The notes beneath the pieces are model-generated. The model did not search any database and was not told the origin of the DNA. It worked only from the letters and a program-made list of their open reading frames with translations. The position numbers were made by a program, and so were the translations under genes. A stretch of 64,000 nt of DNA. Source: Flavivirga spongiicola. Lineage in GTDB: Bacteria; Bacteroidota; Bacteroidia; Flavobacteriales; Flavobacteriaceae. Below, piece by piece: positions 5,181 to 59,565 of this stretch. Every line of letters starts with the position of its first letter. The stretch's first letter is position 1. The stretch is from the NCBI RefSeq assembly GCF_030540825.1, contig NZ_JAUOEO010000001.1, forward strand, positions 1,895,001 through 1,959,000, read 5' to 3'.

Positions 5181-6083
5181 ATGAAAGATAAATTTTTCCA
5201 ATACATACAGGGTTTACAAGACCGCATTACATCAAAACTTGAAGCCATTGATGGCAAAGCCACTTTTCAAGAAGACCTATGGAAACGACCCGAAGGCGGC
5301 GGCGGACGTACCCGAGTTATTGAAAACGGGCATGTTTTTGAAAAAGGCGGTGTGAATATTTCTGGGGTTCACGGTAAACTTCCAAAATCAATGCAAGCTT
5401 ATTTTAAAGTAGGTGATGTTGACTTTTTTGCCTGTGGATTAAGTTTGGTTTTACATCCCAAAAATCCCATGATTCCTACAGTTCATGCTAACTGGCGTTA
5501 TTTTGAAATGTATGATAAACAAGGGGAAATTATTGATAGTTGGTTTGGCGGCGGACAAGATTTAACACCTTATTATTTGTTTGAAGACGATGCGGTGCAT
5601 TTTCATCAAACCTGTAAAACGGCTTGCGACAAACACAATCCAGAATTTTATCCAAAACACAAAGCACGTTGTGACGAATATTTTTATAATGCACATCGTA
5701 ATGAAGGCAGAGGTATTGGTGGCTTATTTTTTGATTATTGTAAAGCTTCAGAAACCATGACCATGGAAAATTGGTATGACTTTGTAACCGAAGTTGGAGA
5801 CAGTTTCTTAGAAGCCTATATTCCCATTGTTGAAAAACGAAAAGCATTAGAATACACAGAGGCACAACGAAATTGGCAAGAAATTCGTCGTGGACGCTAT
5901 GTAGAATTTAATTTAGTACATGACAAAGGCACCCTTTTTGGGCTAAAAACCAACGGGCGTATAGAAAGTATTCTAATGAGTTTACCTCCTTATGTACAGT
6001 GGGTTTACGACCACCAACCTGAAGTTGGGAGTGAAGAAGAAAAATTAATAGAAGTTTTAAAAACACCAAAAAACTGGGTTTAA
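5181..6083 (+). CDS. hemF: Oxygen-dependent coproporphyrinogen III oxidase
   Basis: HemF oxidatively decarboxylates coproporphyrinogen III to protoporphyrinogen IX using O2. The 300-residue protein carries all family signatures: VHANWRYFE (residues 101-109, with the conserved His), WFGGGQDLTPYY (121-132), HRNEGRGIGGLFFD near 173-186, and RRGRYVEFNLVHDKGT followed by LFGLKTNGR near the C-terminus. Choice of HemF rather than the radical-SAM HemN at this position fits an aerobic lifestyle, although a separate HemN elsewhere cannot be excluded. Confidence 0.97.
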   Translation: MKDKFFQYIQGLQDRITSKLEAIDGKATFQEDLWKRPEGGGGRTRVIENGHVFEKGGVNISGVHGKLPKSMQAYFKVGDVDFFACGLSLVLHPKNPMIPTVHANWRYFEMYDKQGEIIDSWFGGGQDLTPYYLFEDDAVHFHQTCKTACDKHNPEFYPKHKARCDEYFYNAHRNEGRGIGGLFFDYCKASETMTMENWYDFVTEVGDSFLEAYIPIVEKRKALEYTEAQRNWQEIRRGRYVEFNLVHDKGTLFGLKTNGRIESILMSLPPYVQWVYDHQPEVGSEEEKLIEVLKTPKNWV

Positions 6084-6084
6084 T

Positions 6085-6858
6085 ATGTGGAAGCTATTTA
6101 AACGTGCCTTTTTAATTATAAATTGGAAAACATTTGTTATTACATTTTTATCGATAGCATCGACCGCTTTTTGTTTGCATTACCATATCAAAGCAGATTT
6201 TCCTTTAACACTTATAGGGACAGCCATCGTTTTTCCTATTGTGTTTTCTATAGGAGGCGCCTATAAACGCCGTGAAGCGGCATTAGATGAATACGGATCT
6301 ATTAAAGCCCATGGAAGATCCTTATACTTTGCTGTATCTCATTGGTTAGAAAACCCTCCTCAAGAACTTAAAACAGACATTAAAATACATCTTGAAAATC
6401 TGCTCAATTCTTGCACACAAGTATTTACAAACCCTGTTGATAAATTAGAGGAGACTGAAAAAGGCGTTTATCAAAATTTTCATAACCTTTCGGTGTTTAT
6501 AAAAAGCCTACGTGCTCATGGTTTACCTTCTGGTGAAGCTTCACGTTCCAATCAGTTTCTAAGTAAAATGATGATTTCCTTTGAACGAATAAAACATATT
6601 TACCAATATAGAACACCAAGAACTTTACGTACTTATAGTGACATTTTTATCGTTGTTCTGCCCATTATTTATGGCCCTCATTTTGCAGAAAACGTTACGA
6701 GTTATAACTACGGATTACAATATGCAGTCCCTGTACTATTCAGTGTTATTTTAGTTGCATTAGATAATATTCAATCACATTTAGAAAACCCTTTTGATCA
6801 GCAAGGGGAAGACGATGTAAATATTAATGTTAAAAAATTTATTAAGAATTTAGAATAA
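6085..6858 (+). CDS. Bestrophin-like membrane protein
   Basis: A 257-residue protein with membrane segments near 13-35, 42-57, 201-217 and 219-237, separated by a long soluble helical stretch containing SIKAHGRSLYFAVSHWLE. The C-terminal LDNIQSHLENPFDQQGEDDV matches the acidic 'NPF' signature of bestrophin-like proteins, which in better studied members form anion channels. It starts one base after hemF, so it is probably cotranscribed. Link to heme metabolism is unknown. Family call is fairly sure; ion selectivity cannot be read. Confidence 0.75.
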   Translation: MWKLFKRAFLIINWKTFVITFLSIASTAFCLHYHIKADFPLTLIGTAIVFPIVFSIGGAYKRREAALDEYGSIKAHGRSLYFAVSHWLENPPQELKTDIKIHLENLLNSCTQVFTNPVDKLEETEKGVYQNFHNLSVFIKSLRAHGLPSGEASRSNQFLSKMMISFERIKHIYQYRTPRTLRTYSDIFIVVLPIIYGPHFAENVTSYNYGLQYAVPVLFSVILVALDNIQSHLENPFDQQGEDDVNINVKKFIKNLE

Positions 6859-6903
6859 AAAGCCATTGACTATTTTTAAAACAATCAAAAAGTCAGATCT
6901 AGT

Positions 6904-7335
6904 ATGAATCATTTTGAAAAATTGGAGCGCATGTATCTTAATGCAAACTTAAATAAAGAAATTTATCAAAGCACAACCGTTAAGATTCAAAATGAAACAG
7001 CTCAGATTCAATTGACTATTGAGCCCAAATACTTCCATGCATTGGGAGCTATTCATGGATCAGTATATTTCAAACTTCTTGATGACGCGGCTTTTTTTGC
7101 CGTTAACTCTATAGTCAAAGATGCTTTCGTTCTTACAACAAATTTCAATATAAACCTTATAAGGCCTGCAAATAAAGGAATTATTACGGCTATTGGCAAA
7201 GTAAAATTCAAATCGAAAAACTTATTTATTGCAGAAAGCTCTTTAATTAATGATACTGGAAAAGAAATTGCTTTTGGTACAGGGCATTTTGCAAAAAGCA
7301 GAATAGCTTTAAACGAAGAAATAGGATATAAATAA
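6904..7335 (+). CDS. PaaI-type hotdog thioesterase
   Basis: A 143-residue single-hotdog protein. YFHALGAIHGSVYFKLLDDAAFFAVNS in the middle gives the HGG-like helix of PaaI thioesterases (here HGS), and the C-terminal half shows the usual beta-strands (TTNFNINLIRPANKGI, IAFGTGHFAKS). Such enzymes hydrolyse acyl- or aroyl-CoA. It is the last plus-strand gene before the convergent helicase, 45 bases after the bestrophin-like gene. The exact substrate is not visible. Confidence 0.82.
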   Translation: MNHFEKLERMYLNANLNKEIYQSTTVKIQNETAQIQLTIEPKYFHALGAIHGSVYFKLLDDAAFFAVNSIVKDAFVLTTNFNINLIRPANKGIITAIGKVKFKSKNLFIAESSLINDTGKEIAFGTGHFAKSRIALNEEIGYK

Positions 7336-7370
7336 AATAACACCCTCAAAATCGTTAGAAACTTAGGCTG

Positions 7371-10007
7371 CTATCTCCACACAACCACCTGCTTAGAAAC
7401 TTTTTTAAAGGCATTATAAACATGGAATAACCTTGCTTTCAATAATAGTTTCCTGCCTTCAACGTGTCTGGTATAAAACAACTTATTCCTTCCTAAATTA
7501 ATGCGCCAGTATTTTTGAAATACTAGTGCATTTGCTTTCTTGTCTCCAAAAATTTCTGGAACAGAATAAAAATTCTCAATATTTAAACGTCTTCTAAAAA
7601 GGTTTGTTTTTACAATTAAATATCTTGGCGATTTTACTGGTTCTATAATTTCACTCAAAGCGTTTGAAAACAGCGAATTTTCGAAAGGGTTACTCCCCAA
7701 TAAATCACAAACAATATCGCCATTATCAATACGTTTGGATTCAATTCTTATTGAGCTCATATCAGTAGTCATAAAACCTAATTCGAATAACGTATTAAGT
7801 ATGACTTCTCCCATCTTTTTAATTTTCTTATCGAGAAACCCATATCTCATATAAAGTGTCACCGCTTTGTATAACTTATAACCAAATGACACTAAAAGAG
7901 CTGTCAAAAAAGTATATAAAAAATACGTCATACCCCTACTTAAAACAACATGGGTGTTTTTTAAAATAAACTCTAAATAAAACAACAAAATTGTAAAAGA
8001 TAGCTCTGCAACAAAAAACCTTACAGCATCAAAATAATAAATTCGCTTCTGTTTTTTATAAGCGATTTCTCCTAAATGATAAATCTTGATTTCTTTCGTT
8101 AAATGTGTTCCTTTTACAATGGCATTATTCCATTTTTTTATAATATTATTTCTGTTGTTGGCATTTTTGAGTGTCTGTAAGTTTAAGGTTTCTACATCTT
8201 CTTCTAAAATCTGCTCTGGAAATTGTAAACGTTCAAAACTATTTTCAATATAAGGTCGGTTGCTATTAGAAACCCCGACAAAAGCCTCAAATCTTCGTCT
8301 TAAAATATCAACATCTCTACCTCCATTTAAAACAGTGCTATCTACACATGCAAGATGCCAAATATTGCCTGTTTTGTTTAACTGATCAGGGTCTTTTCTA
8401 ATAGCTCTTCCTCGCATTTGATTAGAAGACACAAACGAACCAACAAATGATGCTAAAATCAAACTGTTTATTGATGGCGCATCCCAACCTTCTCCCAATA
8501 AAGATTTTGTACCAACCAAAACTTTAATATCTCCATTTTCAAAAAGCTCAGTAATAATACTTACGATCGAATTTTTTGTTTTCTTTTTAGATCCTACCGT
8601 TAAAAAGGCATTATCTACTTGTAATGGCGTGAATGAAAAGTGATCACAATTCTCAATAAGATTAAAAGCCTCTAAAATGGCCTTATGAATGATAACCAAA
8701 CTTCCAGAAACCACTGCCAATGCTTCTTTATTTAAAAAATAGGCTCTTAAATACTGAAAAACAGGAATAACACCTATTTTATTAACGGTCTGAATTTTAT
8801 TATCATCAGTATTTAAAAACTCTTTTCTAATATAATCTGTTAAAACAACACATCTTAAATCACTATTCAAACTCTCATGTTCTGAAGCTACAATGCTAAC
8901 TATACTTTTAAGTTTACTTGGACTACTAGCTAAGGATTTATACAGTAACTCCTCGCCTATAAAATTTACTTTCCGCTTTTCGAATACATGTATCTTTCTT
9001 AACTCTTTTTCTAAACTTAAGAGGTATGGTTCGCTTTTTAACAACCGTTCCCTATCATCAACTAGTAAATTTTGAAACAAAACCTCTAACCATTCCAGTT
9101 CTAAGGTTGGGAACGTTATTGTTTCCTTTTTATTAAAACCGAGAATCTCCAGTTTATGCCTTTCAACGGCCACGCCGCATGCATTTAAAAAAATTAGAAT
9201 GGCTGAAAAATATTCAGCATTTGAATAAAGCTCCTCTAGGCAAGCCTCAGGTTGATTAAAAAATCGATGTTGCTTAATAAAAGAAACAAAGACATCATCA
9301 TTTAGCAATTTATCTTTAAAATCAGCAATTTTTTGTCTATACTCAACAATAAAATTAATCTCTAAGCCTTCCGGTTTGGAAAAATAAACAAAATCCTGAT
9401 GAGCACATAAATCCGCTTCTCTTACTAAATCCGGAACCGCAATTTCATCATCTATTTCACCGCAAAGCGTAAAATATTTTGAAACTTCCGTTCTATTACT
9501 ATCATAGGGAGGTGTTGCAGTTAATGCTACAACGAAAAAAGGATTATTATTTTTTAAATCAATCAAGCAATTCCACCATTCATTTTTTAAATGATGTGCT
9601 TCATCTAAAACAAGCGTCTTAATATTGTGTTCTTCAAAAAAAGAGTAATAGTCGTTTTTATCTTCGAATGTTTTATAAAAAGCATGCAAAGACTGGTAAG
9701 TCGCAAATGTAATATCATGAGGTGACTTTATATTAAAGGAATGCGATTCATACGCTTTGCTTTTGGTAAAAAAAGATTGTAATCTGTCTTCCCATTGATT
9801 TCTGATAGTAAGCGTTGGAGCAAGGACCAATGTTTTTTCACCTAGTCTTCTAATAATTTCGATGCCTAGAATTGTTTTTCCAGAACCAGGAGGCGCTATA
9901 ACGTGAAAATGGTTATCTGATATATGGCGATCAAAGTTTCTTAAAAGATTCGCCTGATAACTTCTCCAGGGAAAATTAAATTCTAAACGACCTAACGATT
10001 CATTCAA
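7371..10007 (-). CDS. SF2 DEAH-box helicase with two internal membrane segments
   Basis: An 878-residue protein with a superfamily 2 helicase core: Walker A PPGSGKT (39-45), DEAHH (135-139), TATP (163-166), and the late motifs GEGWDAPS and QMRGRAIR around 510-537. The architecture resembles the helicase subunit of type I/III restriction enzymes, without a nuclease motif that I can see. Unusually, residues about 660-706 contain two strongly hydrophobic stretches that look like membrane helices, followed by a roughly 170-residue positively charged C-terminal domain. It is transcribed against the heme genes and lies alone between the thioesterase and hemB. Function unknown; a DNA- or RNA-directed defence role is only one possibility. 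Confidence 0.85.
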   Translation of the reverse strand: MNESLGRLEFNFPWRSYQANLLRNFDRHISDNHFHVIAPPGSGKTILGIEIIRRLGEKTLVLAPTLTIRNQWEDRLQSFFTKSKAYESHSFNIKSPHDITFATYQSLHAFYKTFEDKNDYYSFFEEHNIKTLVLDEAHHLKNEWWNCLIDLKNNNPFFVVALTATPPYDSNRTEVSKYFTLCGEIDDEIAVPDLVREADLCAHQDFVYFSKPEGLEINFIVEYRQKIADFKDKLLNDDVFVSFIKQHRFFNQPEACLEELYSNAEYFSAILIFLNACGVAVERHKLEILGFNKKETITFPTLELEWLEVLFQNLLVDDRERLLKSEPYLLSLEKELRKIHVFEKRKVNFIGEELLYKSLASSPSKLKSIVSIVASEHESLNSDLRCVVLTDYIRKEFLNTDDNKIQTVNKIGVIPVFQYLRAYFLNKEALAVVSGSLVIIHKAILEAFNLIENCDHFSFTPLQVDNAFLTVGSKKKTKNSIVSIITELFENGDIKVLVGTKSLLGEGWDAPSINSLILASFVGSFVSSNQMRGRAIRKDPDQLNKTGNIWHLACVDSTVLNGGRDVDILRRRFEAFVGVSNSNRPYIENSFERLQFPEQILEEDVETLNLQTLKNANNRNNIIKKWNNAIVKGTHLTKEIKIYHLGEIAYKKQKRIYYFDAVRFFVAELSFTILLFYLEFILKNTHVVLSRGMTYFLYTFLTALLVSFGYKLYKAVTLYMRYGFLDKKIKKMGEVILNTLFELGFMTTDMSSIRIESKRIDNGDIVCDLLGSNPFENSLFSNALSEIIEPVKSPRYLIVKTNLFRRRLNIENFYSVPEIFGDKKANALVFQKYWRINLGRNKLFYTRHVEGRKLLLKARLFHVYNAFKKVSKQVVVWR

Positions 10008-52995: not shown

Positions 52996-53214
52996 ATGAG
53001 ACTATTTATTATTTTATTTTTCGTTTTATGCACGATGAGCTTATCATCTTGTGTTACCCGTACCCATGTTGTTACTAAACCTGCAAAGGTCGTTGTTGTA
53101 AAAAAAGCCCCTAGGCATTACAAAATTGTAAAAGTTAAAGGGAAACGTTATTACTTTTGGAATGGAAATCACTATAAGAAAACAAGAAAAGGCTACGTGA
53201 TTGTGAGAGTATAA
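52996..53214 (+). CDS. Small basic lipoprotein
   Basis: A 72-residue lipoprotein with lipobox LSSC (Cys19), followed by a Val/Lys-rich mature part ending RYYFWNGNHYKKTRKGYVIV. The 'YFWNGxxYxxxxxGYVIV' pattern is common in small Bacteroidota surface lipoproteins of unknown role. It stands alone after the thioesterase gene, just before the accessory region. Confidence 0.7.
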   Translation: MRLFIILFFVLCTMSLSSCVTRTHVVTKPAKVVVVKKAPRHYKIVKVKGKRYYFWNGNHYKKTRKGYVIVRV

Positions 53215-53777
53215 CAAATTTAGCTGAGATTTATATTCGGAATCTGTGTGTTATCAGAATAAAATAAACCTGTCGTTCAGATCACTCCAACTGTGCTCGG
53301 TATAGAATATAGCGAACCTGCCTATGGCAGCTACGGTGTACCCACAAATTAATAAACAATAAGAGTACCATGATCTTTTTACCATTGCCGCAAACCAAAA
53401 AGGTCTAGGCTTACCAGAATCCTGTAGAAAATGCTACGGAGGTCCCAGCCACAGATAAAAAGAACTCGCCATATGACCTTTCTTTGTTTGCCCTTTTATT
53501 TGCCATAATTACTGGTCCACCGATAATCCAATATCAAGCTCAAACAGCTTTTTATCTCAAAGCCCTCGTGCTGACTCCTTGATTTTTGACAGAACCCTGG
53601 ATAGGCCACAGTCCCAACCTCCATGGTCTTTCTTTTTTTAGTGCGGCCAGGTCCCTCTGCCCGTTGTCAGGAAAAGGCCATTGGGCTGTCCGACCTTTCG
53701 GAAGGATAGAGCACAAAAGCTTCGGAGACGAAGTTTTGGGCTTGGTTCTTTTCAAGCGATAGCGTGAGAAGAAACCT

Positions 53778-53925
53778 TGTCATTCCGAACGCTATCAAAA
53801 ACAAAATATATTTTGTTTGAAGATATAAAGCGAAGCTTTTGAGGAGGAATCTCATCATATTGAGATGTCTCAAGTTTATCTTGAGCGTAGTCGAAAGGCT
53901 CACCCTTCGCTCTGTCGGCATGACA
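53778..53925. repeat. Dispersed element with TGTCAT/ATGACA ends, copy 2
   Basis: Starts TGTCATTCCGAACGCTATC and ends GTCGGCATGACA, 148 bases against 84 in copy 1 at 49777. It shares GAGGAATCTCAT and TGAGATGTCTC, and has an inserted CTTGAGCG-family unit at 53871-53900. Confidence 0.7.
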
Positions 53926-54000
53926 AACAACTGTATTTCAATTGATTAATTTGATTTTTTTCAATAAAACTTACGTCCAACTCGGGTTAAAATAAAAACT

Positions 54001-54151
54001 TATGTAAGGTTCCCTTTTGCTAGAAAAATGTTAGTTAGAGATATTATTGCTTTTTCAAAGCAAACAGAGAGATTAAATTTTTCACAATAAAGAAGACTAC
54101 AACGAGAGCTTACTGGCTCTATCTAAAGAACAAAAGGGAATCACTTACATA
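54001..54151. repeat. Imperfect inverted repeat bordering about 110 bases
   Basis: TATGTAAGGTTCCCTTTTG (54001-54019) against CAAAAGGGAATCACTTACATA (54131-54151); one arm is the reverse complement of the other apart from two inserted and one changed base. It ends 8 bases before the stop of the sigma-like gene. Might be the ends of a small element; no coding capacity inside. Confidence 0.5.
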
Positions 54152-54158
54152 CTGAATT

Positions 54159-54431
54159 TTATTTGTGCGGGGGCTCATAATGTTCTGTAACCTTATAGTG
54201 TTTACTTTTTAAAAAATGAAGACATTCATTTTTTACCGTCTTATAAAAAACCCCTGTTACATGGTCTTTGTTTTGAAAAGTGATTTTATCTTCCCATGCT
54301 TTAACAAATACTTCCTCAACAACATCTTTTGAGAATTCCCAATCGTTGAGGTATTTGTAAGCAAACACACTTAGTTGTGGGTACAAGCTCTCAAAAAGCT
54401 TTTTATAATTATTTAATGTAAGTTCATTCAT
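54159..54431 (-). CDS. Truncated sigma-70 region 2 protein
   Basis: A 90-residue protein that matches only the N-terminal half of an ECF sigma factor: LYPQLSVFAYKYLNDWEFSKDVVEEVFVKAWED and GVFYKTVKNECLHFLKSKH. Region 4, needed to bind the -35 element, is missing. It may be a remnant or a natural short regulator. Its start overlaps the 54428-54760 gene by 4 bases, so the pair is cotranscribed. No anti-sigma partner is seen. Confidence 0.7.
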   Translation of the reverse strand: MNELTLNNYKKLFESLYPQLSVFAYKYLNDWEFSKDVVEEVFVKAWEDKITFQNKDHVTGVFYKTVKNECLHFLKSKHYKVTEHYEPPHK

Positions 54432-54760
54432 TTATTACTATTTACTACGTCGTTTATTTTAATACACGATTCTATATTTTCAATAATCATATGTGCTGGA
54501 ATCAATGCTCTGTTGTTAAAATATGCGGCAGGGAAAAACGCAAAGAACCCGTCAAACTCTTTTCTTGACAAAAGATTTGTTCCGGTATTATAGCCCTCAT
54601 GAGCATGGATAATGCCAATAACCCTTAGCCCTGTTTTACAATGGTTTTTAACGGCATACGTTAGCTCAGTTTTATCCAATAAGACCATTAATGTGGCTAT
54701 AAGGGCATAGTGTGGTAGTATAAAACTATCTGGTAATGTATAGGTTTCTGTTTTTTCCAT
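54428..54760 (-). CDS. Unrecognised 110-residue protein
   Basis: A protein with mixed composition (DSFILPHYALIATLMVLLDK, then GYNTGTNLLSRKEFDGFFAF). No known motif or clear membrane segment apart from one moderately hydrophobic stretch near 15-28. It overlaps the truncated sigma gene by 4 bases and precedes it, forming a two-gene minus-strand operon that starts just beside the structured region at 54861. Function unknown. Confidence 0.6.
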   Translation of the reverse strand: MEKTETYTLPDSFILPHYALIATLMVLLDKTELTYAVKNHCKTGLRVIGIIHAHEGYNTGTNLLSRKEFDGFFAFFPAAYFNNRALIPAHMIIENIESCIKINDVVNSNK

Positions 54761-54860
54761 AGAATTTAATGCTATTAGTTAGTAACATTTTAAGTTTAGT
54801 TCCTTAAAAAGAGATATCACCTCTCCAAAGCCTATAATGTGTGAAAACAAAAAAGGCGCG

Positions 54861-54990
54861 GAACTCAACTTACCACGTTAGAGGTACTGGTATACCCAAC
54901 CACGATAAGAGAGCCCACGCCCGGGTACGTGAGCCAATCTACTTATCATCTCGTGGTTTTAAAAATTACCAGTTTTCTAACATGAGATTC
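54861..54990. ncRNA. Long nested hairpin, candidate structured RNA
   Basis: Complementary blocks occur in strict nested order: GTTAGA (54877-54882) with TCTAAC (54976-54981), ACTGGTA (54886-54892) with TACCAGT (54967-54973), AACCACGA (54898-54905) with TCGTGGTT (54951-54958), TAAG with CTTA, and CACG with CGTG around CCCGGGTA. CTCA and TGAG close the outside. It spans about 130 bases with small internal loops. On the minus strand it would lead into a run of seven Ts near 54854, suggesting transcription in that direction. It is not a tRNA. It could be an RNA gene, a leader, or a DNA cruciform for recombination. Confidence 0.5.
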
Positions 54991-55132
54991 AAAGCAATTG
55001 CTTCAATATTTTAAAAGAAGAATCGCAAAAATATGTATTTCTGGAGCTAATATATAAAAAAAGGCAATCATTCGCTAACGCGAACAGTTAATTTTTGATT
55101 ATTCGCTTGATTTGGGTGAATTGTAAATAACG

Positions 55133-55447
55133 ATGAGTAAACACAAGAACAAAAAAAGTAAGGATGAATTAAATAAGGCAAACGCTTTAGTAAATAGATA
55201 TTTGTGCAACTTTATTGCTAATAAGTTCTTGCAAACATTTCATGATCAAGATGGAAATGTGATTTCTCAGAACAAATATGCAAGCTCATGTGGCTTATCT
55301 TCGTCTACTCTCAGTAAATTAAAGAGCTCTGAAGGTTATGATATACCAATGGCAACCATTTACAATATTTGTAGACAGGAGAGGTATTCTTTGAAAAGCT
55401 TATTTGAAGAGTTTGAAAAAAATTATGGAGTGAACATACCGCTTTAG
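55133..55447 (+). CDS. Small helix-turn-helix protein
   Basis: A 104-residue, charged protein. ISQNKYASSCGLSSSTLSKLK in the middle is a helix-turn-helix of the XRE type, followed by YDIPMATIYNICRQERYSLK as a further helical part. It probably represses or activates a nearby promoter. It precedes the ParA operon by 271 AT-rich bases (no gene in that gap), and follows the structured region, so it is the probable regulator of the accessory region. Confidence 0.75.
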   Translation: MSKHKNKKSKDELNKANALVNRYLCNFIANKFLQTFHDQDGNVISQNKYASSCGLSSSTLSKLKSSEGYDIPMATIYNICRQERYSLKSLFEEFEKNYGVNIPL

Positions 55448-55718
55448 GTGCTAATTTTATTGTACTTTTCTGTGATATAAACTCCTAAGAGCTAAACCAC
55501 TAATAAAAGGAAAATATTAGATAAATTTGGTTTATTTATAATAGGAATAAACGCAATATTATGTTTATACAATAGTTGTAGTTAATAGCTCAAAAAAGCT
55601 AAATACTAAAGAAAATAACTTTTAATTATATAAAATTCATAAATTACCTTCTTAAAAATGAAATGGATTTATACATCCTAATTAATTACAATAAAAAATT
55701 TAAAAATATTAAATAAAG

Positions 55719-56549
55719 ATGAGTGTTATAAGTCTAATAAATATGAAAGGGGGCGTAGGTAAAACAACTCTCGCTATAAATATTGCTGATTGTCTTGCAT
55801 CACGTCATGACAAAAAAGTACTTATATTAGATGTTGATCCACAATTTAACTGCACTCAAAGTTTAATGCAACCAAAAGCCTATGTCAAACACTTAGAAAA
55901 GGAAAAGGATACTATTGTAAATGTTTTTGATCGAGTAAAACGCGCAGTAGCCAAGACAGTTGATGGAATCGGAGAGTTAAAAAGCAAAAAAATAGATAAA
56001 ATAGAACCAATTGAAATTCGAAAAAATCTTTTTTTATTGCCTGGTAATTTAGAGCTTTACAGAATGGAAATGTCCCCGGGAGAAGGTAGAGAGTATAAAT
56101 TATCTAGGTTCATTGAAGCAATAAAAAAGAAGATTGATATCGATATTACAATAATCGATACCCCGCCAACTCCTTCAATATGGATGACTAGTGCCTTATT
56201 AGCATCTGATAATTACATCATTCCAGTAAAACCCGATCCAATGAGTTTTACCGGAATTGATCTACTCGAAAGTATTATTGAAGATAAAAGGGACAATCTT
56301 AATATAAAAATTAAATGCCTAGGATTAGTACTCACAATGGTTGAAACCGGCACTAAAGTACATAAAGGTGTTCTTGGGATAATTTCAAAAAGCAAGAAAT
56401 GGAGAGCCTTAAAATTTAACAAAGAAATACCTAAACGGACCCAAATAGCACGCGAACAATTAAATCAGAAATTTATCTTAGATAATTCTGATGAGAGTGC
56501 GAAAATTGCCCTTACGGGTCTAGTAAATGAAATTTTAGCAAAATTATAA
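55719..56549 (+). CDS. ParA-family ATPase
   Basis: A 276-residue ParA/MinD-type ATPase: deviant Walker A KGGVGKTT (10-17), Walker A-prime LDVDPQ (37-42), Walker B IIDTPP (145-150) and PVKPDPMSFTGIDLLESII. The 50-residue stretch between A-prime and the next core strand (about 51-105) is an insert. It begins a three-gene unit with the following two proteins; no ParB and no replication gene is near, so ordinary plasmid partition is not evident. It could localise a complex, as in element maintenance, or belong to a defence or mobile-element function. Confidence 0.9.
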   Translation: MSVISLINMKGGVGKTTLAINIADCLASRHDKKVLILDVDPQFNCTQSLMQPKAYVKHLEKEKDTIVNVFDRVKRAVAKTVDGIGELKSKKIDKIEPIEIRKNLFLLPGNLELYRMEMSPGEGREYKLSRFIEAIKKKIDIDITIIDTPPTPSIWMTSALLASDNYIIPVKPDPMSFTGIDLLESIIEDKRDNLNIKIKCLGLVLTMVETGTKVHKGVLGIISKSKKWRALKFNKEIPKRTQIAREQLNQKFILDNSDESAKIALTGLVNEILAKL

Positions 56550-56567
56550 ATCAATTATTTGCGAGAA

Positions 56568-57053
56568 ATGAATGATAACGAAATAAAAAAAATATTTAAC
56601 TTTCTAGAAGAGCTATCTTGGGTTTTTAAATCGCATAAAAATGTAGATTTGAATGATTTTCTAAATGAAATTAGAATCAATCAAAATATTAGAAACTCAA
56701 TAATGCATGGTACAATTAACGAAAGTAGATTAAGCGAAAAAGATCGCTTAATTGGTATTTTACCTAAATTATTAAACGACAAGAAACTATTTTCCAGAAA
56801 TTCAGATTTAATAGACTTTGCGGAATCTACTTTCAATATTAGCATTTCAAGACCTGAAAAGAGATCTAGATATGAAATTATTGGATTGGTAATAATAGAA
56901 ATTTTAGAACTTAAAAATAATAGAGTCCTCGATATTACTGATGCGATACAATCACTTACTAGTAATACGAAATTTAAAACTATGCTTAAGAAGAAAAAGA
57001 ACAGCCCAAACTTTTCATGGAATGAAGCAATTAGAGAAATTACAAATCAATAA
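56568..57053 (+). CDS. Unrecognised partner protein 1 of the ParA operon
   Basis: A 161-residue protein, mostly helical and charged (NEIKKIFNFLEELSWVFKS; ISISRPEKRSRYEIIGLVII). I recognise no family. I chose the ATG at 56568 over an in-frame TTG at 56559. It follows parA by 18 bases, and its stop shares one base with the next start. Its steady position suggests a dedicated role with the ATPase, perhaps as the adaptor that ParB proteins normally provide. That is inference. Confidence 0.75.
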   Translation: MNDNEIKKIFNFLEELSWVFKSHKNVDLNDFLNEIRINQNIRNSIMHGTINESRLSEKDRLIGILPKLLNDKKLFSRNSDLIDFAESTFNISISRPEKRSRYEIIGLVIIEILELKNNRVLDITDAIQSLTSNTKFKTMLKKKKNSPNFSWNEAIREITNQ

Positions 57054-57778
57054 TGTCAAGAGAAGTTAGTAAAGATTTCGAAGAATTTATAACATTTTTA
57101 AAAAACTATAAACTCAAAAAAGTTTTTAAAAATGATGAAGTGATTAAGAATTTAAGAAAAATTCACAAAAAATATTATTCTTATTTAACTCTAATAAGTG
57201 AATTGGAATCACTTGTCGACGATACCAAATTAAAGCCAGAAATAAAAAAAATTCAATTCACATATATCGTTGAATCATCTTCTGATATTCTCTCAGCAGT
57301 ATTTCATTCTATAAACGGATCATATAAGTCAGCAAGAATGATGTTAAGGAGTTCAATAGAGACCTTTTTTAAGGGATTTTGCGAACAAGATATTGAAGGT
57401 ATATTAGAAGAAAAGAGGATTTTCGTAATATTCGATTCTATCAAAGAAATAGATTATTTCAAAAAAGAGCCGCAAAAAACAATGCTGAATTCTTGCTTAT
57501 CCGAATATGGAGATTTATGCAAAGATACCCATACTGCAAAAGCAATAAACATGCAAAAACTAACTGCTTTTAAATATTTTCCGAGTTATGATGACAATCA
57601 AATGAATGATATAAGCAAGAGAATATTAAAGCTTATACAGGTTTATCTATTCTTAATCTGTAATAGACACAATTCTCATTTTCAGCAAATGCATCATAGA
57701 AATAAAGCTAACATTATTTTAAGTATAAAAAAGTCGTTAAAACCGATTATTTTAAATAATATAGATTATAAAGGTTAG
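57053..57778 (+). CDS. Unrecognised partner protein 2 of the ParA operon
   Basis: A 241-residue, largely helical protein. The stretch SYKSARMMLRSSIETFFKGF (about 98-117) resembles the signature of helical HEPN-like or DUF5677-type proteins, but the RNase motif RxxxxH is not convincing here (NRHNSHF and MHHR occur near 202-214). It is translationally coupled to the gene before it (TAATG) and ends the operon. Any toxic or RNA-cutting activity is speculation. Confidence 0.7.
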   Translation: MSREVSKDFEEFITFLKNYKLKKVFKNDEVIKNLRKIHKKYYSYLTLISELESLVDDTKLKPEIKKIQFTYIVESSSDILSAVFHSINGSYKSARMMLRSSIETFFKGFCEQDIEGILEEKRIFVIFDSIKEIDYFKKEPQKTMLNSCLSEYGDLCKDTHTAKAINMQKLTAFKYFPSYDDNQMNDISKRILKLIQVYLFLICNRHNSHFQQMHHRNKANIILSIKKSLKPIILNNIDYKG

Positions 57779-57805
57779 GCATTTCAGTCACTACTAACTA
57801 CCCCC

Positions 57806-57902
57806 TAGTGCCGAGTGTGAGTGATAAAAAGAAAAAAGTTTTTACAGAAATGCAGAAGCTTTTCTAGATTATTTTCATTGACATTTGTAGACGCTTACCG
57901 CC
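57806..57902. repeat. Left direct repeat flanking the integrase relic
   Basis: GTGCCGAGTGTGAG, then AAAAAAGTTTTTACAGAAATG, GAAGCTTTTC, ATTATTTTCATTGACATTTG and CGCTTACCGCC occur in the same order and spacing as in 58098-58200. Imperfect hairpin around TTTTTACAG. Confidence 0.65.
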
Positions 57903-57920
57903 ACTAGTTTTGAAAACTAG
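57903..57920. promoter_or_regulatory. 17-base palindrome at the integrase relic
   Basis: CTAGTTTT-G-AAAACTAG, perfect inverted repeat (57904-57920), just after the left direct repeat. May be a recombinase or regulator binding site. Confidence 0.4.
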
Positions 57921-57931
57921 AGGTAGCAGAG

Positions 57932-58043
57932 GTAGATTTAAGGCAAATACAAATACTTTTAGGTCATGGTTCTAGTAAAAGGCAGAAATATTACTCGTGT
58001 AGCTACAAATACTTTCAAAACAATTAAAAACCCATTAGATTAG
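57932..58043 (+). pseudogene. Remnant of a tyrosine recombinase C-terminus
   Basis: VDLRQIQILLGHGSSKR in frame 57932-57982 is the end of a phage/XerD-type integrase (motif LLGHGSS). A frameshift then leads to ITRVATNTFKTIKNPLD-stop ending at 58043, the usual 'YTHV...NPLD' tail, with the catalytic tyrosine region degraded. Nothing upstream of it is left, so it is a dead fragment. It shows that an integrase once sat here and marks this as the edge of an accessory element. Confidence 0.8.
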
Positions 58044-58097
58044 TGGTCTCCCCCGCTGTTCCATAGTATGCCCCGGCTAGGATTTCCTTGTGGCGTA

Positions 58098-58200
58098 CCG
58101 AGGAAGTTTTAAGTGTAAGGAGGAAAAAAAGAAAGCTTTTACAGAGACGTAAAAGCTTTTTTAAATTATTTTTTATTGGTATTTGCTTAGGCTTACCACA
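58098..58200. repeat. Right direct repeat flanking the integrase relic
   Basis: Second copy of the 57806 repeat. Here AAAGCTTTTAC-AGAGA-CGTAAAAGCTTT is a perfect 11-base-pair hairpin followed by Ts. Before it, 58064-58096 has CCGCTGTTCCATAGTATG and CCCCGGCTAGGATTTCC, which recur at 59014 and near 62081. Confidence 0.65.
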
Positions 58201-58356
58201 GTAGACTCAACTGATTTAAAAATTAAGAAATACTTCTGTTAAAATTTAGAAATTGTTCTGTTAATAATGGTTAAAAACGTTAAAGCTATTATAAACACAA
58301 TCCTACAAACACAAAAAACATTTGATTTGTTTTAAATAATCAAAAAATTTAAAACA

Positions 58357-58911
58357 ATGAAAAAACTATTACTAGTAACAGCCATCAGCATTTTGGGATT
58401 AGCACATATTAACGCACAAGACGTTGAATTCGGAATTAAAGGCGGTTTAAACTTTGCTACAGTTATTGGAGACAATACCTCAAAAGATCAAACTGTAACC
58501 GCTTTTAATTTTGGAGCCATGGCTGAAATTAAAATTTCAGACAAATTCTCTTTGCAACCCGAATTAATGTATTCCGGACAAGGGTATGATACAAACATTG
58601 ATTCTGAGGGTATTATAGCACTAAACTATTTGAATATTCCATTAATAGCAAAGTACTATGTTACAAAAAGGTTGAGCCTTGAAGCAGGACCTCAAATTGG
58701 TTTTTTACTTTCTACTAAAGGAGGCACTGAAGATTATAAAGATCTTTTTAAAACAACAGATTTTGGTGTGAATTTCGGTCTTGGCTATAAATTGGATAAT
58801 GGTCTTAATTTTGGAGTACGTTATGTTTTAGGTTTATCTAATATTAACGATGTGGGTGGTGTGACAAATAAAAATGGAGTATTACAATTAAATGTTGGCT
58901 ACTTCTTTTAA
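58357..58911 (+). CDS. Outer-membrane beta-barrel protein (PorT-like)
   Basis: A 184-residue protein with a signal peptide ending NAQDVEF and a beta-barrel body, FGIKGGLNFATVIGD, then FSLQPELMYSGQGY and FGVRYVLGLSNIND, ending in VGYFF with the terminal phenylalanine of outer-membrane barrels. It belongs to the small porin-family (PorT/outer membrane beta-barrel) group. No partner is adjacent. Confidence 0.85.
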   Translation: MKKLLLVTAISILGLAHINAQDVEFGIKGGLNFATVIGDNTSKDQTVTAFNFGAMAEIKISDKFSLQPELMYSGQGYDTNIDSEGIIALNYLNIPLIAKYYVTKRLSLEAGPQIGFLLSTKGGTEDYKDLFKTTDFGVNFGLGYKLDNGLNFGVRYVLGLSNINDVGGVTNKNGVLQLNVGYFF

Positions 58912-59440: not shown

Positions 59441-59565
59441 CTATAAAATTAATTGCTAGTACAAGTCTACTTACGAAAATCTTTGCGGATTTTCTATTCG
59501 GTTTGTATTTGCTAAATTAGGCGCTTAAAACACGCAACAAACCATAAACACGTTGACAATAATTA
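59441..59565. repeat. Palindromic cassette-like spacer
   Basis: GAAAATC-TTTGC-GGATTTTC (59475-59494) is a perfect stem, and GGTTTGT pairs with ACAAACC across it (about 59501 and 59536). The spacer ends CACGTTGACAATAA just before the next gene. Confidence 0.6.

Follow-up and report, generated by a model that had tools for sequence, protein, structure and literature searches.

Analysis of a 64,000-nucleotide (nt) stretch of the Flavivirga spongiicola genome (contig NZ_JAUOEO010000001.1, positions 1,895,001 to 1,959,000; hereafter the window) revealed a cassette of three genes, which encode a ParA-type ATPase and two helical proteins, P2 and P3, and form one unit spanning positions 55719-57778. 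The cassette recurs in unrelated genomes and is a mobile accessory element. We propose, with a probability of about one half, that it is an undescribed ParA-based module directed against invading mobile elements, most likely phages. This proposal is based on the conserved operon, the joint inheritance and accessory distribution of its genes, their placement in defence islands and prophages, the intact motifs of ParA and, for P3, a HEPN-like fold in the predicted model along with four polar residues that never vary.

Conservation of the three genes as a unit

Relatives of the cassette were collected at 15 other loci: eight on genome contigs by use of a P3 profile, two by use of the P3 protein (a plasmid of Plesiomonas and, from among plasmid records, an E. 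coli chromosome), and five remote ones by use of a P2 profile. At all 15 loci found with P2 or P3, the genes were arranged in the order ParA, P2 and third gene, and thus the arrangement is more than chance. Such joint occurrence in unrelated genomes, within variable islands, had been named as a test in a preliminary description of this DNA and was borne out. Hosts named for the P3-profile loci were Mucilaginibacter, two Deltaproteobacteria metagenome-assembled genomes (MAGs), an Alteromonadaceae MAG, Paenibacillus, Calidifontibacillus, a Lachnospiraceae MAG and Blautia. At two loci (L064 and L067), the third protein failed to reach E 1 with the P3 profile and was counted as P3 based on its position, length and shared R/E/Y/H residues. 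The P2-profile surveys covered small genome samples, with 2/395, 3/391, 1/369 and 3/398 genomes matched and the seed genome counted in each; weak P2 matches in three genomes (G753, 5e-7; G775, 1e-6; G1592, 7e-9) were retained, as each lies between ParA and a third gene. Among a 60-genome kinship sample, P3 was found in the window's genome only and not in the 59 others, including 11 of the same genus.

The comparison covered thirteen complete cassettes, one from the window and 12 from the other loci; L008, L010 and L065 were excluded as incomplete: the ParA open reading frame (ORF) of L010 begins past Walker A and is missing its N-terminus, ParA of L008 is split over two frames, and P3 of L065 runs off the contig. 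The junctions between genes were -26 to +9 nt in all 13 cassettes, based on start codons that we chose. In the window, P2 and P3 share a TAATG at 57051-57055; this overlap and the ParA motifs KGGVGKTT and IIDTPP, both noted in the preliminary description, were confirmed in the ORFs. Pairwise distances of ParA, P2 and P3 were correlated with one another (Mantel rho 0.841, 0.830 and 0.817), and none of 2000 permutations reached such values. The cassette stretch has a G+C content of 0.29, the poorest of the window, and the DNA that follows, from 57 to 62 kb, is likewise at about 0.30. An Rfam scan of 53000-58400 returned nothing at E 0.1.

When the neighbouring genes were read by eye, no further gene recurred next to the triad across all loci. 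This bears on whether the cassette positions some other cargo, such as the DNA complex of its own element, with no role in conflict. ParA/MinD ATPases do position many cargoes; the lack of a constant fourth gene, together with the patchy distribution and the placement in defence islands, makes this explanation very unlikely.

Distribution of the cassette in E. coli

Of 5426 E. coli genomes, 133 were found by megablast to carry the cassette (best place per record at least 99% identity), with one genome having two places. All three genes of the E. coli copy have open frames and together fit within 2.0 kb; their products carry the annotations 'ParA family protein' and 'hypothetical protein'. Seven places were read with their annotation and represented at least three kinds of insertion setting: a restriction/DarTG island, a lambdoid prophage and a P2-like prophage (Table 1). 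In the P2-like prophage, the cassette is found at a position that we take to be the fun locus of P2-like phages. A second defence-enriched locus of these phages, which holds fun, is described in Vassallo 2022 (PMC9519451).

Genomic settings of the cassette

Six of the 15 other loci were beside restriction or defence genes, three were prophage-like, two had serine recombinases, one was on a plasmid and three had none of these, a distribution drawn from a small, non-random sample in which 20 neighbour proteins were profiled and the others read by eye. The settings are listed in Table 1; E. coli, with its type I RM and DarTG genes (L017), is one of the six. At the Paenibacillus locus, the DRT reverse transcriptase gene and the cassette are possibly co-transcribed. 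By eye only, no defence, prophage, recombinase or plasmid genes were seen at L010, L012 and L068. The preliminary description had stated that no replication or phage gene accompanies the cassette, a claim that fails for relatives that adjoin a rep gene (plasmid p11184) or sit in prophages.

As a control for placement, N6-methylase genes were found within 8 kb of the cassette in 3 of 12 host genomes compared to 0.205 expected (Poisson P 0.0012; 0.0004 at 5 kb and 0.0022 at 10 kb), in a comparison of one gene family and 12 genomes with sizes partly rounded. No described system was assigned to the cassette by PADLOC (PADLOC-DB of 2023), which returned P-loop or marginal matches only. P3 and P2 of the window had no tblastn match in 50,697 phage records, and a Pseudomonas P2 had none in phage records either. 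Scans of viral contigs returned one contig only, holding the L016 cassette (in three of five scans, the other two being empty). PHROG families 12497 and 12265 exist although the tblastn of the window proteins was empty; their source sequences may be prophages or too diverged for tblastn.

The ParA ATPase and features of partition systems

A profile of the cassette ParA family was found to match ParA-type proteins best among solved structures (8ray, 7.7e-25; 2oze Orf delta', 1e-23). The deviant Walker A motif is present in the family, with KGGVAKT in two Bacillota copies. The window's genome carries two more adjacent ParA-like genes, of 254 and 372 amino acids (aa), at 3421722-3423696 (G000:C1); the P2 profile finds one P2 only in that genome.

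These matches raise the question of whether the cassette is an unusual partition or maintenance system of plasmids or prophages, in which P2 and/or P3 replace ParB and the chromosomal copies are leftovers of integrated elements. Besides the intact ParA that is nearest to partition-type ATPases, the triad directly follows rep on plasmid p11184, and the longest contig of several P3 relatives is 4.8-6.0 kb. However, a plasmid rep was identified at only 1 of the 15 loci (among neighbours profiled or read as above), and chromosomal islands and integrated prophages have no need of partition. P2 and P3 matched no ParB or known centromere-binding family in Pfam, NCBIfam or PHROGs, which leaves room for a partner of unknown type. 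A ParABS system would be expected to have a centromere, and in this respect the 500-bp flanks pointed both ways: no 10-mer of at least three copies was found at 12 of 13 loci, the upstream flank of L068 being the exception (the downstream flank of L008 covers 70 bp only), but when 10-mers were counted with reverse complements, and hence hairpins, several flanks were richer in repeats than most of 200 shuffles. This enrichment was foremost upstream of L068, with 1/200 shuffles as high downstream of the E. coli copy and 3/200 upstream of L009. Also in favour of a partition role, Rousset 2022 (PMC9122126) mentions a putative plasmid partitioning system, of make-up not stated, at another hotspot in about one quarter of P2-like phages. 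Overall, we consider partition doubtful as the function of the cassette.

The helical proteins P2 and P3

The preliminary description had presented both partner proteins as unrecognised. This holds for Pfam and NCBIfam, where neither protein matched a family above cut-off, but not for PHROGs, where both match families of unknown function (Table 1). A P2 search returned 192 homologues at E 0.001, including Pseudomonas, Brevibacillus and Flavobacterium names that are known from sequence matches alone. The AlphaFold2 model of P2 is all helical (pLDDT 84.5, pTM 0.62). By sequence, neither the P2 profile (best E 0.82) nor the P3 profile (best E 0.57) had a credible match among solved structures.

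The predicted model of P3 is confident and helical, with a HEPN domain as the best fold match at a moderate score, of a size that helical bundles commonly reach. Among 43 P3 sequences, only R99, E103, Y152 and H160 were invariant. An Ex3[KR] motif, as described for HEPN domains in PMC3710099, is formed by E103 (43/43) and position 107, which is K in 40 sequences, R in two and S in one. The weak HEPN/DUF5677-like stretch that the preliminary description had pointed out in P3 was supported by these HEPN fold matches of moderate score and by DUF5677 (PF18928), which matched three of six other P3 proteins at E 0.0035-0.018, over the helix with RxxxE; every DUF5677 match was below the family cut-off and the P3 of the window itself had none.

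The predicted HEPN-like fold of P3 would also suit an addiction module of the toxin-antitoxin type, carried for the stability of its element, in which P3 would be the toxin, P2 the antitoxin and ParA a regulator or ATP-dependent switch. The genes are small, adjacent and often overlapping, and prophages, islands and one plasmid carry the cassette. By contrast, three genes including an ATPase are an unusual layout for such a module, and no antitoxin DNA-binding domain was seen in P2 in the Pfam and NCBIfam comparison. The mechanism also overlaps with that of defence. We regard addiction as unlikely.

Proposed function of the cassette

ParA ATPases are known movers of plasmids, chromosomes and protein cargo. 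In the module that we propose, ParA would form an ATP-dependent dimer on DNA and monitor the state of that DNA, while P2 would couple ParA to P3. Disturbance of the ParA ATP cycle by the DNA of an invader, or by the complex that replicates or partitions it, might release or activate P3. P3, the candidate effector, could then attack RNA or another nucleotide-bearing target by use of R99, E103, Y152 and H160, and growth or the invader would be stopped. We rate these exact steps below the role against mobile elements as a whole. We further suggest, more tentatively than the role against mobile elements, that the cassette would be the first case of an immune system based on a DNA-positioning ATPase of the ParA type. 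In it, P2 would relay to an effector of HEPN fold whose active site, R/E/Y/H in place of Rx4-6H, would be new, and the system would sense the organisation or partition of foreign DNA instead of its sequence or modification.

The preliminary description had offered a partition-like, defence-like or element-maintenance module. A mobile cassette with defence and prophage placement was found, but sequence alone does not choose among defence, partition and addiction; we lean towards defence. If this is correct, an intact ParA coupled to a HEPN-like protein, and travelling with restriction systems, DRT and prophages, would represent a new sensing principle in bacterial immunity. Otherwise, the cassette would be a partition system without ParB.

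Among the papers listed, in several cases the best 8-15 of a larger number, no published description of the triad was found by title or abstract start, and supplementary tables may hold an entry. In the DefensePredictor paper (PMC13092281), the main text does not contain the term 'ParA', which as a whole word is also absent from PMC9519451. PHROGs already include the P2 and P3 families, and the genes are in databases, but the system is probably undescribed.

Surroundings of the cassette in the window

A helix-turn-helix (HTH) gene lies upstream of the cassette across a 271-bp gap and was considered as part of the operon. This was ruled out, as a sister genome (G002) has the HTH gene without the cassette and the other loci tested have the cassette without the HTH gene. 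G002 carries, at the same place, an HTH gene with 88% aa identity as well as the neighbour upstream of it, and no cassette; positions 54458-55446 of the window, which hold both genes, align to G002 (77% identity) behind host genes common to both genomes, and the alignment ends at the HTH stop codon, with unrelated genes beyond. At E 1, no HTH relative was found at the cassette loci tested except that of the window itself (the five remote P2-profile loci were outside this test). The HTH gene is therefore host background, and the regulator of its own that the preliminary description had attributed to the cassette was not borne out. The place of insertion is variable: in seven relatives, the DNA past the shared host genes was unlike the window.

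An integrase-like relic was recognised by eye, without a profile, at about 57.95-58.04 kb, with LLGHGSSKRQKYY in one frame and ITRVATNTFKTIKNPLD, ending in a stop, in another. It is flanked by imperfect 49-nt direct repeats (82%) that are 297 nt apart and may be old element ends. On the upstream side, a piece of an extracytoplasmic function (ECF) sigma factor retains region 2 only (Sigma70_r2, 3e-8; TIGR02985, 65 bits compared to a cut-off of 126.4), and a 110-aa gene beside it has no family match and a relative in G002. Further downstream in the window (Table 1), a sequence of about 108 nt recurs at 75-84% identity in two relatives, once in L052 and at three places in L053, like an interspersed repeat.

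Table 1. Coordinates of window features and settings of the cassette at other loci (RM, restriction-modification).
Locus	Position	Strand	Feature
Window	54159-54431	-	ECF sigma factor piece, 90 aa
Window	55133-55447		HTH gene upstream of cassette, 104-aa ORF; not a cassette member
Window	55719-56549	+	ParA-type ATPase, 276 aa, with KGGVGKTT as Walker A and IIDTPP as Walker B; AAA_31 (8.7e-37), PHROG 164, ParA-like (2.4e-49)
Window	56559-57053	+	P2, helical partner, 164 aa (TTG start) or 161 aa (ATG start at 56568); motif KRSRxExIG; PHROG 12497 (3e-19)
Window	57053-57778	+	P3, helical protein, candidate effector, 241 aa; predicted HEPN-like fold at about residues 55-209; PHROG 12265 (1.8e-32)
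Window	57827-57875, 58124-58172		49-nt direct repeats
Window	59442-59549		Recurrent sequence of about 108 nt
L017 (E. coli)	5539-7259		darT and darG inside type I restriction cluster beside cassette
L017, L075, L076 (E. coli)			Type I RM-DarTG cluster and GTPase/Ag43 island
L073 (E. coli)			GTPase/Ag43 genes; no RM cluster within the 9 kb read
L071, L072 (E. coli)			Lambdoid-like prophage; near-identical element
L074 (E. coli S19-141)			P2-like prophage; cassette inverted, flanked by genes for tail fibre assembly and tail sheath
L011			PDC-S69 164 nt downstream, then type I RM
L015			REase_I (type I) 123 nt upstream
L013 (Paenibacillus)	6893-8539	same as cassette	DRT reverse transcriptase RT_UG13b (3.8e-132), 102 nt upstream
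L009			PDC-S26 and N6-methylase piece around cassette
L064			MTase_II (type II methylase) 4.2 kb away
L067			Prophage-like; between integrase and S24 repressor
L065			Prophage-like; beside endolysin and putative tail genes (read by eye)
L016			Prophage-like; beside IrrE peptidase; cassette also in an IMG/VR contig
L016	11155-12153		Integrase-like by eye, but no Pfam match at 1e-5
L014, L066			Serine recombinases nearby
L008 (Plesiomonas plasmid p11184)			Triad directly after rep

Comparison with known systems

The predicted helical fold of P3 may be that of the HEPN superfamily (2hsb AF0298, 3o10 sacsin, 1wol, 1o3u and 4nqf), with which P3 has in common the E103-K107 pair of its Ex3[KR] motif and the invariant H160, which ends a long helix. 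By contrast to the Rx4-6H of that superfamily, P3 of the window has no R 5-7 residues before H160, though H160 is kept in 43/43 sequences, and has instead Y152-x7-H160 together with the invariant R99 on another helix. With regard to placement, the defence loci of P2-like prophages (fun and old/tin) hold many systems, and one E. coli copy of the cassette lies among the tail genes of a P2-like prophage; the triad is not named in the available portions of the published descriptions. The cassette ParA is like the partition ATPases of ParABS and delta-omega systems (8ray ParA, 2oze Orf delta' and Soj) in sequence and in the motifs KGGVGKT, DxDPQ and IIDTPP, but where those systems have ParB or omega, the cassette has two conserved helical partners in which no ParB or omega homologue was recognised. 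A ParA-like NTPase in a conflict setting, as proposed here, has a parallel in the MinD/ParA-like domains of the vWA-MoxR-VMAP conflict systems, which are predicted to be inactive and are embedded in large multi-domain systems (PMC7159879); by contrast, the motifs of the cassette ATPase are intact and its partners are unrelated to those systems.
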